Shown here in pieces: positions 5,908 to 51,914 of a DNA stretch of 64,000 nt. The stretch covers positions 186,001 to 250,000 of the forward strand of contig NZ_FOFM01000004.1 in NCBI RefSeq assembly GCF_900110875.1. Reading direction: 5' to 3'. The notes under the pieces were generated by a model. The model ran no database searches and was not told where the DNA came from. It was given only the letters and a program-made list of their open reading frames with translations. The position numbers were made by a program, and so were the translations under genes. Every line of letters begins with the position of its first letter. Position 1 is the stretch's first letter. This DNA comes from Pseudovibrio axinellae (GTDB lineage Bacteria > Pseudomonadota > Alphaproteobacteria > Rhizobiales > Stappiaceae).

Positions 5908-6213
5908 ATGTTGCTCAAGTTTCAACGAGTTTGCAGCGCTGTTGTGCTGGCAGGTTTTGTTGGAGGATGTGCCTTTGGTGAATCTTTGACTGTCTATGAA
6001 GCAATTGAAAAGGGCAGTGGCACCAAGCAAACTGGTATTGCCGAGCTGCCTCCAGAGAGTCAGAGCTCTTTGCTGTCCCCTGAACAGCGTGCTGCAATTG
6101 AGGCTAATTTATTGGCAATTTCCTCTGAAAGTAAGCAGAGAGCAGGCATCGGTGCCAATTTTGAAAGCAGTGCTGATCAATTGAAGTCTATTGCTGGTGA
6201 GCAGACGCAATAA
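5908..6213 (+). CDS. small putative lipoprotein
   Basis: From the ATG at 5908 the product has 101 residues and begins MLLKFQRVCSAVVLAGFVGGCAFG, a typical lipoprotein signal with lipobox VGGC, so lipid attachment to Cys21 is likely. The mature part is Gln/Ser/Glu-rich with no second hydrophobic segment. A ribosome site ACGAGG lies about six bases before this ATG. The longer frame from 5863 would put 15 polar residues before the signal peptide and is unlikely. Family not recognised; neighbours give no functional clue. Confidence 0.6.
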   Translation: MLLKFQRVCSAVVLAGFVGGCAFGESLTVYEAIEKGSGTKQTGIAELPPESQSSLLSPEQRAAIEANLLAISSESKQRAGIGANFESSADQLKSIAGEQTQ

Positions 6214-34104: not shown

Positions 34105-34179
34105 TGGCTCCCCGGGCCGGATTCGAACCAGCGACCAAGCGGTTAACAGCCGCTTGCTCTACCACTGAGCTACCGGGGA
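34105..34179 (-). tRNA. tRNA-Asn (GTT), copy 1
   Basis: The minus strand folds as a standard cloverleaf: acceptor TCCCCGG / CCGGGGA, D-arm TAGCTCAGTGGTAGAGC, anticodon stem around CTGTTAA with anticodon GTT, and T-arm GGTTCGAATCC. The CCA end is encoded. 75 bases. Confidence 0.97.
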
Positions 34180-34214
34180 TCACGGTATTTTGCCATTGGC
34201 TGCAATCAAAGAAG

Positions 34215-34289
34215 TGGCTCCCCGGGCCGGATTCGAACCAGCGACCAAGCGGTTAACAGCCGCTTGCTCTACCACTGAGCTACCGGGGA
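34215..34289 (-). tRNA. tRNA-Asn (GTT), copy 2
   Basis: Identical over its 75 bases to the copy at 34105-34179. The spacers between the copies are also related in sequence, showing tandem duplication of a unit of about 110 bases. Confidence 0.97.
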
Positions 34290-34329
34290 TCACGATGATC
34301 TTGCCGTTATGGCTGCAAACGAAAAAGGA

Positions 34330-34404
34330 TGGCTCCCCGGGCCGGATTCGAACCAGCGACCAAGCGGTTAACAGCCGCTTGCTCTACCACTGAGCTACCG
34401 GGGA
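34330..34404 (-). tRNA. tRNA-Asn (GTT), copy 3
   Basis: Identical 75-base tRNA-Asn. It is the first to be transcribed of the three, if the array is one transcript on the minus strand. The opposite strand carries the cobalamin riboswitch about 280 bases away. Confidence 0.97.
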
Positions 34405-46745: not shown

Positions 46746-46943
46746 TTAAACCTGCCTCTAGACTGTCCGCGGTGCTGTGGTGTTTTGCCAGCTGAGTGTA
46801 ATCATCAAAGCGTGCAGGAGCCATGTGGAAGCCATGTTACTGCACAGTTTCTCCTCGTTGTCCCTGAAAAGCCAAGTCTTATATGGTTGCATTGCCCAGC
46901 TGAAAGGTGCCGTTGATGGTGGCGGGGCCGCAAAGTCAAAAGA

Positions 46944-47684
46944 TTAGTGTTGTGTATACCGCACGACGAAATTGCGCAGCATGTGCGCTGGGGCCGTTAC
47001 ATCCTCCCGGCGTGCAGAGGCAAGGAGGTCTTTGATTTCGCTGGGTTTAAAGTAGCTGTGGTCTTTGTACACATTTAGGCGAACTTCCAGGCCTGCGCTA
47101 TCAAGCTCTGGATGGAACTGCGTTGCATAGACGTTTTTGCCATGACGGATGATCTGGAACGGGCATGCTGGGGAACTTGCCAGATGTATGCAATTAGGTG
47201 GTAAATCTTGTAGTGCTTCCTTATGGCAAACGTAGGTCTTAAAAGAGGTCGGCATGGTTGAGAGAAGGGGGTCGGAGCGCCCCTCCTGAGTGAGTGTGCA
47301 AGTCACAGCGGCGGGTTTTTCACCATACTTTGCTTTGCTGACCTCCCCGCCAAGAAAATGACCAAGAATGCCAATGCCGTAGCAACACCCAAGCAGAGGA
47401 AAATCGGTTCGGACTACGTCTGGCATCAGAGCTAGAGCAGCAGATTCGCAGCGCTGGTCGATTAGAGACTTCTTTTCATGAGGATCACTGACGCAACCTG
47501 GGCCTCCACCTAAAATTACACCTGAATATTGACCAAGGTCGATTTGGGGAGGTTTTTGAAGTTGATCCAGCCGCACGCGGTGAGTTTGGTGCGCTTTCAG
47601 CCCGGATTTGGCTAGAATAGCGAGGTATTCTCCATCAGAGGCATCGGTTTCAGGGCGCAGTTGCAATATCAGAAACGGCTTCAT
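46944..47684 (-). CDS. class I glutamine amidotransferase (GMP synthase-like)
   Basis: A stand-alone glutaminase-type domain of 246 residues, resembling the gamma-glutamyl hydrolase/GuaA-N group. The oxyanion and nucleophile region is GVILGGGPGCVSDP then LLGCCYGIGILGHFLGG with Cys101, and the catalytic His-Glu pair is in YATQFHPELD. There is no ATP-pyrophosphatase domain, so it is not GMP synthase itself. I choose ATG 47684, giving the start MKPFLILQLRPETDA typical of the family; the longer frame from 47726 adds unlikely residues. Substrate unknown; it stands alone next to tRNA-Cys. Confidence 0.85.
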   Translation of the reverse strand: MKPFLILQLRPETDASDGEYLAILAKSGLKAHQTHRVRLDQLQKPPQIDLGQYSGVILGGGPGCVSDPHEKKSLIDQRCESAALALMPDVVRTDFPLLGCCYGIGILGHFLGGEVSKAKYGEKPAAVTCTLTQEGRSDPLLSTMPTSFKTYVCHKEALQDLPPNCIHLASSPACPFQIIRHGKNVYATQFHPELDSAGLEVRLNVYKDHSYFKPSEIKDLLASARREDVTAPAHMLRNFVVRYTQH

Positions 47685-48017
47685 TTTATCGCGATCCCAA
47701 CAGATTTGCTGAGCGTAATGGACCACAGGATGCTTTTAGGTTCAAGGGCTATCAGGTTTGCTCATCGGAAGAGTCAATGAGAGAGCCATCTGGTCCCCTT
47801 TAGAGCGCGAGTTGTCGCCTGCTTTGTTAGCGCTTGGGGTGCAAAGGTTCTATGCTGTTAGTGGAAAGCGCGGTAATGCACAGTACGACCATGCAGGTGC
47901 AAGGCATGTTGACTAATCGCCTTAAGATTCAAGAAGGGGAAAAAGATTGTTCGGCTGTGCTGCGCTACTGACATGATGCCCGCGCGGCTGACGAAATATG
48001 AAACATTTTGGGAAAGT
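47685..48017. other. intergenic region between the amidotransferase gene and tRNA-Cys
   Basis: About 330 bases with no gene that I can support. This is the 3' side of tRNA-Cys, where integrative elements usually insert, but no repeat of the tRNA 3' end was found here or near the phage remnant on the other side. Confidence 0.3.
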
Positions 48018-48091
48018 TGGAGGCCTCTGCCGGAATCGAACCGGCGTACACGGATTTGCAATCCGCTGCGTCACCACTCCGCCAAGAGGCC
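48018..48091 (-). tRNA. tRNA-Cys (GCA)
   Basis: The minus strand folds as a cloverleaf: acceptor GGCCTCT / AGAGGCC, D-arm GGCGGAGTGGTGACGC, anticodon GCA in GATTGCAAATC, T-arm GGTTCGATTCC, CCA encoded. 74 bases. It borders the phage remnant on its 5' side. Confidence 0.97.
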
Positions 48092-48432
48092 AACAGTATG
48101 GTGTGGAACGGCTTTTCTGACATTTGAGCTTGATAGTCAAGCCGGTTATGCAACTTTCTCAGAAGTGTTTGGCAAAAGCTGTTTATAAACCGCTCTCTAG
48201 ATGTGGGTTCTCAAAGTATCAGGGGCGCAATTTGAGGAGGGTGAATATTTCGCAGTCCACTTATCCTCCACCCCTGCGATAAATGATAGTATTTCTATAG
48301 GCTGGGAAGTCGCGTAAGTGCCTCATGGAGAAGCGTCATAACGCGATGAACTTCAGGTGTCCAAATATCTGCAGCCTTTGGGCGGGGCGTTCCGGGGGTG
48401 TTCTCTTTTGACGACAACTAGAAAGCGGTAAT
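48092..48432. other. intergenic region before the DUF2793 gene
   Basis: About 340 bases. It contains the tRNA-Cys promoter region and a GC-rich stretch near 48385-48405 but no gene. A complementary pair GGAGGGTG (48236-48243) and CACCC-like (48270-48275) might pair, without a T-run. Confidence 0.3.
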
Positions 48433-49206
48433 ATGAGCAACACGGCACATTTAAACTTGCCGGTGATCGCGGCTGCGCAATCGCAAAAGCACGTCACACA
48501 CAACGAAGCCTTAGCGCTGATTGATTTACTGGTTCAACTCTCAGTGATTTCAAATAGTGTGGGTGAGCCGCCTGCAGATCCGGTTGAGGGCGCACGCTAT
48601 ATTGTACCAGCGGGCGCAACGGGCGCATTTGCTGGCTATGAAAACCAGATTGCCGCTTTTGATACAGGCGCATGGCGGTTTATTGCGCCGGGCACGGGCT
48701 GGTGTGCATGGGTTGAAAGCGCCGGGGGGATGCAGGTTCATTCTAATGGCGCATGGGGCCTCTTATCGGCTGTGGCCGGGCTTGGCATAGATCCGGGCAC
48801 GGGCGGGCTTGCCATTCAGCAAGAAAGAACCGTTTTAAGTGAAACGGATCACGGGGCACAAAGCCAGTTTGTCACCGTTGAAGAAGAGCTGAGCCTTGCA
48901 GGTAGCAGCGTTAACAGCACGGTTGTGATTCCTGATCGGGCATTTGTGTTTTGTGTCTCTTCGCGCACCGTGGAGGACGTCACCGGCGTGTGGCAATATC
49001 ATGTGGGCATTGCCGGGGAAGCTGAAAAATTCGGCGGGTATCTTGGGATTGCAGAAGGCTCCACCAATGCAGGCGTGATCGGGCCGCAAGCCTTTTATGC
49101 AGATACGCCGATTGTGATTTCAGCGCATGGCGACACTGGGGCGTTTGTAGGTGGCAAGGTTCGCATTGCCTTACATTATTTCTTGCCGGTGATTCCGCAG
49201 GAATAA
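48433..49206 (+). CDS. DUF2793-family phage-type protein
   Basis: A 257-residue protein whose N-terminal 100 residues match the DUF2793 pattern of alphaproteobacterial prophage tail regions: LNLPVIAAAQSQKHVTHNEAL, LVQLSVIS, PPADPVEGARYIVPAGATGAF and AFDTGAWRFIAPGTGWCAWV. The C-terminal half is beta-rich and Gly-rich (GIAGEAEKFGGYLGIAEGS), as in phage fibre or receptor-binding domains. The ATG at 48433 is a clear start. It is the left end of a phage-derived segment, but no portal, capsid or tail-tube gene remains in the window. Confidence 0.8.
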   Translation: MSNTAHLNLPVIAAAQSQKHVTHNEALALIDLLVQLSVISNSVGEPPADPVEGARYIVPAGATGAFAGYENQIAAFDTGAWRFIAPGTGWCAWVESAGGMQVHSNGAWGLLSAVAGLGIDPGTGGLAIQQERTVLSETDHGAQSQFVTVEEELSLAGSSVNSTVVIPDRAFVFCVSSRTVEDVTGVWQYHVGIAGEAEKFGGYLGIAEGSTNAGVIGPQAFYADTPIVISAHGDTGAFVGGKVRIALHYFLPVIPQE

Positions 49207-49312
49207 GTTGTATTTCTCGAAATATGACCGAGGCATACTAAAATATGTTGAACAGATGATGTACAGGCAGTTATCAATGGTATGTGATAGCTGGATAGCT
49301 TGGGAGGGAGAA

Positions 49313-49714
49313 TTGCTGCATCACGTTGAGATCTATGTTTCTGATATTGAACGTAGTCATGCGTTTTGGAAACCGCTGTTTTCCCTTGCTGGCTATAAGG
49401 AAAGTGGGCGGTGGGGTGATGGCTTTACTTTTGAGAGCAGTAAGGGGGCTTACCTCACATTTGTGCAGGTTGCAGAGAAGTACGCGATACATCCTTATCA
49501 CCGCTGTGGTGTTGGTTTGAATCACCTCGCATTTTCAGTGGTTGATCGAGCACGGGTAGATAGAATTCGGACTCATTGCTTGGAGTTGGATATCCCACTA
49601 CTTTATGAGGATCGCTACCCTTTTGCTAATGGCGGAACAGATTACTATGCTGTGTTTCTTGAAGATCCCGACCGGATCAAAATCGAATTTGTCGCAAGAT
49701 CAAGCGATAGATAA
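49313..49714 (+). CDS. VOC-family (glyoxalase/dioxygenase superfamily) protein
   Basis: A small beta-alpha-beta-beta-beta metalloenzyme-like protein. The domain runs from HHVEIYVSDIERSHAFWKPLF through VGLNHLAFSVVDRARVDRI to DYYAVFLEDPDRIKIEFVA, matching the VOC pattern with potential metal ligands His (HHVEI), His (NHLAF) and Glu (KIEFV). I favour TTG 49313 with GGGAGG five bases before; the frame itself opens at TTG 49208, with an unrelated leader. The substrate is unknown. It lies between two phage-type genes and may be a cargo (moron) gene or an insertion in the remnant. Confidence 0.8.
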   Translation: MLHHVEIYVSDIERSHAFWKPLFSLAGYKESGRWGDGFTFESSKGAYLTFVQVAEKYAIHPYHRCGVGLNHLAFSVVDRARVDRIRTHCLELDIPLLYEDRYPFANGGTDYYAVFLEDPDRIKIEFVARSSDR

Positions 49715-49748
49715 ACAAAGTTGATGGATTGACAACGATTCTCTGACT

Positions 49749-49770
49749 GGCCGCTTAGCGGCTTTTTTTG
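49749..49770 (+). terminator. terminator after the VOC gene
   Basis: GCCGC-TTA-GCGGC stem followed by seven T, 36 bases after the VOC stop. A second weak hairpin (CGGGGGC / GCTCCCG near 49778-49796) with T-run follows directly, just before the endolysin ribosome site. Confidence 0.65.
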
Positions 49771-49816
49771 TATCTACCGGGGGCCTTTGGCTCCCGTTTT
49801 TCGTTAGGGGGCAGGC

Positions 49817-50593
49817 ATGAAAGATACCTTTCAATTGATTGTCTTGGACTTGCTTGGAAGTGAGGGCGGGTTTGCAAACAGATCGCGCAAAGCAGATCCG
49901 GGCGGCCCAACCAATTTGGGCATTACGCAGGCGATTTTGGAGGCCTGGCGCGGTCGTCCTGTGAGTGTGGAGGAGGTCAAAAACTTAAGCCGTGAGGAGG
50001 CTTTGAAGATCTACCGCGCGCAATACTGGGATAGCGTGAAGGGCGATCAGTTGCCGCGTGGGCTCGATTATGCCGTGTTTGACTTTGCGGTGAATTCGGG
50101 GCCTGTACGGGCCGCAAAGACCTTGCAGAAAATCCTTAAGGTCAAGGTTGATGGGGTTATCGGCCTGAAAACATTGCGAGCTGTAAAGGCGCACACTGTT
50201 ACGTCTTTGATTAACCTGCTTTGCGCTGCGCGCCTCAAATTCATGAAACGGCTGAAGAACTGGCAGTTTAATAAAAATGGCTGGTCGCGGCGTGTGCGCC
50301 ATGTGCAGGAAAGATCTTTAGAGCTTGCCAGCAACGTAACTCTAAAACGTGCGCCAATGCCTGTTTTGGATGCGCAGGTAAACGAGCAGGGGGCCAAAGC
50401 GCTTGACGAAGAAACCAGCGCGTTTAGTGCATGGCTTAGCCCTGACGGGATCACTCGTGCAAGCATGGCAGCTTCTGGCTTGTCTGGCATTTTAGCTGGT
50501 TCCGGCCCTCTGCAATGGGCCTTTGCGCTTGCTCTGGTGGTAAGCGTTGGGGTTGCCGGTTATCTGCTGATTACCAAAGAGCGGGCGGCTTGA
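49817..50593 (+). CDS. GH108 endolysin (N-acetylmuramidase-like) with C-terminal membrane segment
   Basis: A phage-type muramidase of 258 residues. The N-terminal GH108 domain has the catalytic Glu16 in SEGGFANRSRKADPGGPTNLG and GITQAILEAWRG. Next come YWDSVKGDQLPRGLDYAVFDFAVNSG and a PG_binding_3-type stretch KVKVDGVIGLKTLRAV. The C-terminal 25 residues form a hydrophobic helix (FALALVVSVGVAGYLLI) that would anchor the enzyme in the membrane; such an arrangement is unusual for a soluble endolysin but known among SAR-like or anchored variants. GGGGG lies upstream of ATG 49817. Directly followed by the spanin-like gene, which marks a lysis cassette. Confidence 0.9.
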   Translation: MKDTFQLIVLDLLGSEGGFANRSRKADPGGPTNLGITQAILEAWRGRPVSVEEVKNLSREEALKIYRAQYWDSVKGDQLPRGLDYAVFDFAVNSGPVRAAKTLQKILKVKVDGVIGLKTLRAVKAHTVTSLINLLCAARLKFMKRLKNWQFNKNGWSRRVRHVQERSLELASNVTLKRAPMPVLDAQVNEQGAKALDEETSAFSAWLSPDGITRASMAASGLSGILAGSGPLQWAFALALVVSVGVAGYLLITKERAA

Positions 50594-50594
50594 T

Positions 50595-50885
50595 ATGGGA
50601 GCCGCTCTATCATTCTTGATTGGCACAAAAGCAGGGCGGGCGGTTGCGGCCGTTCTGCTTTTGTTGGTGCTTGCGGTCATTGCTTATCACCAGATCAAGC
50701 AAGGAGCGTTTATCGAGGCAGAGCATGAGGCTTTGCAAGGGACTGTGAACGCGGAACGGGAAAGGACGCAGGATGATGCCTATTTGCAGGGCCTTGAAGA
50801 TTACAATTTGTGTCTTGAGTACCTTCGCAATTCCGGGATGCAACACACTGAGTGCGAACAATTGCGCGGGGTTCACAAAGAATAA
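50595..50885 (+). CDS. inner-membrane spanin-like (Rz-type) small protein
   Basis: The 96-residue product begins one base after the endolysin stop. It has one N-terminal transmembrane helix (about 13-32, VAAVLLLLVLAVIAY) and then a charged, helix-forming periplasmic part rich in Glu and Gln, with cysteines near the end (CLEYL, TECEQL). That layout, a single membrane anchor followed by a coiled periplasmic stretch, is the layout of phage Rz (i-spanin). Assignment rests on position and topology; I have no sequence-family proof. A second copy in decay lies at 51438-51692. Confidence 0.6.
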   Translation: MGAALSFLIGTKAGRAVAAVLLLLVLAVIAYHQIKQGAFIEAEHEALQGTVNAERERTQDDAYLQGLEDYNLCLEYLRNSGMQHTECEQLRGVHKE

Positions 50886-50991
50886 CCTTAGCGCGGCCGG
50901 GTTTGTTGCTTTAGTGAAGGCTGACCGCGCTGGGGCTGAGCGGGTAAGTGCTAATGACCGAAACGGACAGAGGCAGGGCTGTTGGAAATGA
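50773..50991 (+). CDS. possible embedded Rz1-like lipoprotein frame overlapping the spanin gene
   Basis: A 72-codon frame in another register begins inside the 3' part of the spanin-like gene at ATG 50773 (preceded by AAGGACGCAGG) and continues past its stop. It starts MMPICRALKITICVLST and reaches FAIPGCNTL, a short lipoprotein-type signal with Cys23 at the cleavage position. In lambda-like phages the outer-membrane spanin Rz1 is coded this way inside Rz. The lipobox has Pro at -2, which is not ideal, and the mature part is not Pro-rich, so this is a suggestion, not a firm call. Confidence 0.35.
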   Translation: MMPICRALKITICVLSTFAIPGCNTLSANNCAGFTKNNLSAAGFVALVKADRAGAERVSANDRNGQRQGCWK

Positions 50992-51137
50992 CGGATTTTA
51001 TTTTAGAGATATTCCACCGCCTGCAACTTTGAAAAACGGCAATCATTTTTGTTTTTGCCTTGATTGGTGCGTTGCTTCAAGAGGCAGGTTTTTGGCAATG
51101 AGTGGTTGCAATATCATGGCGTTTACGCTGGTTTCTC

Positions 51138-51371
51138 CTAGGCATTATTTGCATAGGGGAACTCTGGTGGCCGGTATCCGTTTAGCATCCATTCGAGCAC
51201 ACGGCAGGCGATGGGATTAGGCGGTCGCTTGCCACTTGTGTCCTCCCATCTGCGAACAGTGTGTTGATCAGTGTTTAAGATGCGACCTAGATCGCGCTGA
51301 GATAATTCTAGCTTTAACCGCGTTGCCTTGAATTCTGCCGGAGACATTGATTTACTCGCCTGCTTTGCCAT
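51138..51371 (-). CDS. XRE-like helix-turn-helix protein
   Basis: A short DNA-binding protein of 77 residues from ATG 51371. The central stretch SPAEFKATRLKLELSQRDLG plus ILNTDQHTVRRWEDTSGKRPP forms a classic helix-turn-helix, with the recognition helix around DQHTVRRWE. A C-terminal part (ACRVLEWMLNGYRPPEFP) follows. The longer frame from 51422 includes cysteines and may be artefact. Lying on the opposite strand between the working and the decayed spanin copies, it may be a leftover phage regulator, or a fragment of a larger toxin-antitoxin regulator. Confidence 0.7.
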   Translation of the reverse strand: MAKQASKSMSPAEFKATRLKLELSQRDLGRILNTDQHTVRRWEDTSGKRPPNPIACRVLEWMLNGYRPPEFPYANNA

Positions 51372-51437
51372 TTGTCTCAGCATAGGGCGGCCGCAATGAG
51401 TGGTACAGCTATGAAAGTTCATGTTTAAGCCTTTTGC

Positions 51438-51692
51438 AGTTATCCGTTAAGTCGGGTGGTTGGGGGGCTTCTACTTCACACTTGGTGAGCGCAGGAGCAG
51501 AGCGCGCGCGGACCTTCTGCTTTTTTTGATCGTTATGGCTTACATCAAATCGGGTAGTCGGCGTTTGAAGATGTTGCGCAAGAAAACGTTACAGCGGAAG
51601 GCGAAAGGAAGAAGAACGACGCCTATTTGCAGGGCTTCAGGGGTTTCTGTGATGTTTTGGGGGCGATCGAATTTTACTCCGGGGAGCATTGA
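51438..51692 (+). pseudogene. decayed second copy of the endolysin tail and spanin-like gene
   Basis: Bases 51438-51692 align with the 3' end of the endolysin and the spanin-like gene at 50560-50850. At protein level one frame reads LHQIG-stop-SAFEDVAQENVTAEGER then KKNDAYLQGF, against YHQIKQGAF and TVNAERERTQDDAYLQGL in the intact gene. A TAG stop replaces a Lys/Gln codon and a frameshift separates this from the membrane-helix part, which reads LLLFLIVMAYIKSG in another frame. The embedded Rz1-like frame is also lost (PICRA is kept, the lipobox is not). It is a duplicated lysis segment in decay. Confidence 0.75.
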
Positions 51693-51914
51693 TGTATAGG
51701 GTTCTGAAAACTATCAGGAATAATTGAGAGCTTGGGTGCTTTATCGTGTCTCCTCTGTTCGCGACCGTTGAAAAAGATTGTATTTGTGCTCCAAAATTCA
51801 AAAATGGAAAAACAACAGAGGGTACTCTTTACTTTTAAGCATGTGGCAGCTTGTGTTTACGGCGGTTGAGCGATATTTCTCAGCCAAAGAATCTTGCGAG
51901 ACAGTGAGGACAGG

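Follow-up and report, generated by a model that had tools for sequence, protein, structure and literature searches.

The window, by which we mean the whole 64 kb stretch of Pseudovibrio axinellae DNA analysed here, carries an insert of phage-related genes beside a tRNA-Cys gene (Table 1). Within it a GH108 endolysin gene is followed by two small genes that overlap in different registers, which we read as a candidate pair of inner-membrane (i-spanin) and outer-membrane (o-spanin) lysis proteins, then by a broken holin-like gene, an HTH regulator gene and a decayed piece of DNA related to the first of the two small genes.

Table 1. Features of the insert, in window coordinates
Feature	Positions	Strand	Evidence and remarks
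Insert, right end of siphophage prophage (remnant)	48196-51769	.	Missing from the empty site of the genus; left edge 48145-48196
Tail-tip gene scrap	48255-48306	+	85% match to L095/L103 2937-2988, 3' side of GTA_TIM-type tail-tip gene region
DUF2793 tail-fibre-like gene	48433-49206	+	PF10983 6.5e-31; adjoins endolysin in related prophages
GH108 endolysin	49817-50593	+	PF05838 E 9.5e-26; phrog_315 endolysin 5e-46; C-terminal transmembrane segment ~232-255
Putative i-spanin (Rz-like)	50595-50885	+	phrog_12535 8.7e-15; single membrane helix near the N-terminus; Leu-Cys (C73) conserved in the periplasmic part
Putative o-spanin (Rz1-like lipoprotein)	50773-50991	+	+1 frame; lipobox AIPGC; conserved mature part ending GCW
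Holin-like two-helix gene, broken 5' part	50988-51110	+	In-frame stop at codon 15, second stop, then truncation
HTH regulator	51138-51422	-	phrog_14076 2.7e-9; 71% identical protein in L027
Decayed fragment of related i-spanin gene	51470-51635	+	Lacks a start codon and is interrupted by stops and indels; neither the o-spanin start nor the lipobox Cys survives

Lysis genes and their prophage setting

That a GH108 endolysin heads the cassette, as the first-pass annotation of this DNA had stated, is confirmed by the Pfam and PHROG matches, the Glyco_hydro_108 domain scoring 90.6 bits against a curated cut-off of 21.2. The protein also contains a peptidoglycan-binding PG_binding_3 domain, and its gene has a dN/dS of 0.10 relative to the C52 copy. 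Its C-terminal segment resembles NCBIfam model NF058676 (BaGTA endolysin BgtA) at 1.9e-6, below the cut-off. Endolysins with a C-terminal transmembrane domain have been described for Enc34 (PMC8943055) and for BSPM4 (M4Lys, PMC7143992), and the window endolysin is built in the same order, with the catalytic domain first and a single membrane segment at the C-terminus. It differs from both in its GH108 and PG_binding_3 domains and in the separate holin-like gene that stands alongside in intact prophages. This holin-like gene, which the first-pass annotation had missed, starts within the last codons of the o-spanin frame and is intact in four other prophages (L021, L023, L026 and L027). We name it for its position and its two hydrophobic stretches; family searches returned no named family for it. 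Between the tail-fibre and endolysin genes lies a glyoxalase-fold gene (49208-49714) in a moron-like position, where other prophages of the family have different small genes or none.

The limits of the insert are given by an empty site in the genus. Alignments of relatives cover 48012-48145 and resume at 51769/51770, ~100 nt separating the two blocks, and the left edge reaches 48196 in comparison with one genome. The distance from tRNA-Cys to the PCMT gene is ~280 nt in the relatives, and the window has ~3.6 kb more. A near-complete prophage in a sister genome (G009) supplies the context that the remnant has lost, with portal, capsid, tape measure, tail, DUF2793, endolysin, spanin, holin-like and HTH genes. 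The HTH gene, placed correctly in the first-pass annotation between the cassette and the decayed piece, closes the run of phage genes at that prophage's right end, and host genes follow it. Since this related full element carries head, tail and lysis genes in one run, we assign the insert to a prophage, in agreement with the phage remnant first proposed, and reject the view of it as a side locus of a gene transfer agent (GTA). On the other side of the tRNA-Cys gene, a stretch holding a glutamine amidotransferase gene and its flanks (46746-48017) is not matched at DNA level by the syntenic region in relatives, and a second insertion may have taken place at this site. Elsewhere in the window, three tRNA-Asn(gtt) genes stand in tandem (34105-34404).

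The overlapping frame and its relatives

The first of the two small genes encodes 96 residues and starts one base past the endolysin stop, and the single helix ascribed to it is recovered as one hydropathy peak (KD maximum 2.41 at residues 16-34) with no other in the protein. The second, in the +1 frame, encodes a lipoprotein-like product of 72 residues that begins MMPICRALKITICVLST and has Cys23 in an IPGC motif, just as first described. By sequence rule it has a lipoprotein signal, with a basic N-terminus, a hydrophobic stretch and the IPGC at Cys23. When this simple rule was applied to all ATG-started open reading frames of 50-130 aa on both strands of the window, two qualified, the 50773 frame and one at 5908. 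The residue at lipobox position -2 is a proline, which is unusual. In close copies an AAAGGA stretch resembling a ribosome-binding site lies upstream of the ATG.

The layout was at first taken for the nested, lambda-type Rz/Rz1 arrangement, and in this respect the first-pass annotation was wrong. Lambda Rz1 lies wholly inside Rz (embedded), whereas the window frames share 113 nt and the o-spanin frame runs 106 nt beyond the i-spanin stop, ending at 50991 against 50885, which rules out the embedded class. The +1 register is common to both systems, and a two-component spanin function would be expected of the window pair as it is of lambda Rz/Rz1. Its sequence features are those of a two-component spanin of the overlapped class, as defined by Kongari et al. 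(2018, PMC6139136), of which P2 LysB/LysC and the pair of Dinoroseobacter phage DFL12phi1, with 116 bp shared, are examples. As in these systems (DFL12phi1 being likened by its description only), the predicted i-spanin has an N-terminal helix, the o-spanin lipoprotein is read in the +1 frame from a start in the 3' part of the i-spanin gene to an end past that gene, the genes lie near an endolysin gene, and both proteins contain cysteines. The window o-spanin is unlike the examples in its mature part, which is short, not proline-rich and closed by a conserved ...NDRNG.R.GCW end. Intermolecular disulfides have been described for spanins (PMC6139136), and the conserved cysteines predicted to be capable of forming them, Cys31 and Cys70 in the o-spanin and Cys73 in the i-spanin, fit such links.

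A stop-free +1 frame inside the i-spanin gene is not in itself significant (p 0.06-0.30 when synonymous codons were drawn at random, 0.10-0.84 when codons were permuted). We therefore did not use these tests as evidence, and the status of the frame as a gene was decided by its conservation. The P. axinellae genome has four such cassettes, that of the window included. Both frames are open in nine loci besides the window, three in the same genome and six in relatives within the genus, with one further locus read later, and the 50773 frame is uninterrupted in every genus-level homologue of the i-spanin gene that was read; stops in that frame would, by the first-pass annotation's own criterion, have told against the pair. 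More widely, 18 of 19 genome loci keep the overlapping arrangement, the exception (L134, P. hongkongensis) having a decayed appearance; relatives occur in Pseudovibrio, Roseibium, Stappia, Mesorhizobium, Shinella, Phyllobacterium, Brucella and others. A record labelled Bacillus subtilis strain SK6B4 (L141) also has a spanin pair, closely similar to the Pseudochrobactrum one, and this contig is probably contamination. In IMG/VR we found 21 relatives, and in each of these contigs the o-spanin frame overlaps an i-spanin-like one by 71-137 nt, with the register unchanged.

The proteins themselves are under constraint. Across eight close copies the part of the o-spanin gene outside the overlap has a dN/dS of 0.12, and the corresponding i-spanin-only part 0.43. 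The o-spanin alignment shows no variation at Cys23, Cys31 or the terminal Cys-Trp, the lipobox cysteine being present in all 14 aligned members, and the i-spanin alignment none at Leu-Cys73. In other families of the order the mature o-spanin sequence is still conserved, at identities as low as 30-40%, and its gene invariably follows an i-spanin-like gene in the same register. A chance open frame in and after a small membrane-protein gene would account for the openness of the overlap, which the codon tests leave within expectation, and for the failure of any curated family to name the 50773 product, but the low dN/dS outside the overlap and the persistence of the mature sequence across families argue strongly against this reading, which we consider extremely improbable. 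By these lines of sequence evidence the 50773 frame is a real gene, the predicted spanin partner of the gene that it overlaps, and the pair is genuine.

Searches of spanin families gave a divided answer: named PHROG spanins are matched by relatives in the alignments but not by the window's own two proteins. Two members of the o-spanin alignment match phrog_1275 (3.3e-5) and two of the i-spanin alignment phrog_1026 (1.4e-6), both called "Rz-like spanin". The window proteins match phrog_12535 and, weakly, phrog_26636, which are listed with unknown function; all 12 i-spanin members match phrog_12535. Neither protein matched a curated spanin model in Pfam or NCBIfam. Among phage records the i-spanin had no match and the o-spanin had four, the fourth (E 5) at chance level. 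The other three are Rhizobium phages RHph_N65, RHph_N3_2 and RHph_X2_24, in which a lysozyme or endolysin gene is followed by an i-spanin gene and an overlapping o-spanin gene in the order and register of the window. Their o-spanins are 55%, 40% and 35% identical to that of the window over the aligned part, whereas their i-spanins have diverged to 19-33% identity. All three records leave the o-spanin unannotated. The locus offers one more example of o-spanins missed by gene callers. The system is of a known kind and leaves the picture of how spanins work unchanged; what it contributes is a proposed function for an unannotated overlapping frame and for PHROG family 12535 in phages of Pseudovibrio, Roseibium, Stappia and rhizobia.

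The decayed piece downstream

The first-pass annotation described 51438-51692 as a broken repeat of the endolysin tail and the spanin gene. The spanin part stands: aligned at nucleotide level, 51470-51635 scores 75 against the local i-spanin gene, far above 100 dinucleotide shuffles (21.8 +/- 2.6, maximum 31.5), and the piece contains the noted NDAYLQGF with frame breaks and stops around it. The supposed endolysin tail (51430-51470) does not, being no better than shuffles when compared with six cassettes (p 0.19-0.64).

The repeat had been explained as a duplication of which one copy was kept, so that the piece would be a decayed second copy, in tandem, of the local cassette. A genuine match 843 nt downstream of the local copy is what such an event would leave, and the trees are compatible with it: the best tree groups the piece with the window copy and L021 (66/82, not starred), and a clade of piece and local copy is not rejected (AU p 0.40); the placement tests as a whole (AU p 0.24-0.41) favour no one position. 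Against this, the piece is equidistant to three cassettes of its own genome (159, 159 and 161 of 268 columns). At the 18 columns where the local and C52 copies differ it sides with the local copy at nine, with C52 at eight and with neither at one. Six columns (158, 172, 176, 179, 224 and 241; few columns, sorted after being seen) carry a private or nearly private state in the local copy; the piece has the alternative state at all of them, and the states that it does share with the local copy are mostly the common ones. This lack of local private states makes it unlikely that the piece was copied from the local cassette after the split from the C52 lineage. The repeat also has no endolysin part, the other loci of the same genome have no second copy of this kind, and the piece lies beyond the HTH gene with which the related intact prophage ends. 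We therefore regard the claim of a tandem duplication as unlikely to be right.

The piece is probably a scrap, left either by an older copy or by another related prophage that had inserted at this site, and its position beyond the HTH gene favours another phage over an older duplication. Spanin architectures have been suggested to change by duplication followed by deletion (Kongari et al. 2018, PMC6139136), and it is quite improbable that the piece is a true relic of a spanin-locus duplication, caught as an intermediate on that route. The pairing of a scrap with an intact cassette is seen a second time, at another locus (L022 2026-2067; G000 C76, ~90.0 kb), 14 residues from the start of the same endolysin being found 2.7 kb upstream of the cassette there.

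Fate of the remnant cassette

Taken together, the genes seen at the locus, their overlap, order, breakage, conservation and selection make it highly likely that we are looking at the degraded right end of a temperate siphophage beside tRNA-Cys, which has kept its endolysin and an overlapped spanin pair, with a downstream scrap that is most likely not a recent duplicate. A siphophage whose tail module included a GTA_TIM-type tail-tip protein would have inserted beside the tRNA-Cys gene. In the intact phage, by analogy with homologues and with published spanins, peptidoglycan would be cut by the GH108 endolysin from its membrane tether, and the soluble parts of the inner-membrane i-spanin and of the outer-membrane o-spanin, the latter anchored by its predicted lipid, would together bridge the periplasm and bring about membrane fusion, the conserved cysteines presumably stabilising the complex through disulfides.

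With a broken holin-like gene and no structural genes left, the remnant cassette probably no longer works as a unit. The constraint on the window endolysin and spanins is like that on the copies in other prophages, which suggests, without proof, that the rest of the prophage was lost recently. The same persistence of intact, constrained endolysin and spanin genes after the loss of the holin-like and structural genes might be read as retention of the endolysin-spanin pair for use by the host, for example in the release of gene transfer agents or of vesicles, and the GTA_TIM genes in the same genome and the likeness of the endolysin C-terminus to a Bartonella GTA endolysin are compatible with such a role. 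However, the constraint was measured against copies in other prophages and so cannot be dated to the time after the loss, and a GTA role would be better suited to a spanin-less endolysin that relatives have behind DUF2793 at a conserved place; we hold host use to be very unlikely. Loci that combine DUF2793 and an endolysin without the spanin pair (L028, L029, L031, L032, L035, L036 and L038) lie ~75 kb from PCMT in several genomes, and they are perhaps a fixed or GTA-related lysis locus.
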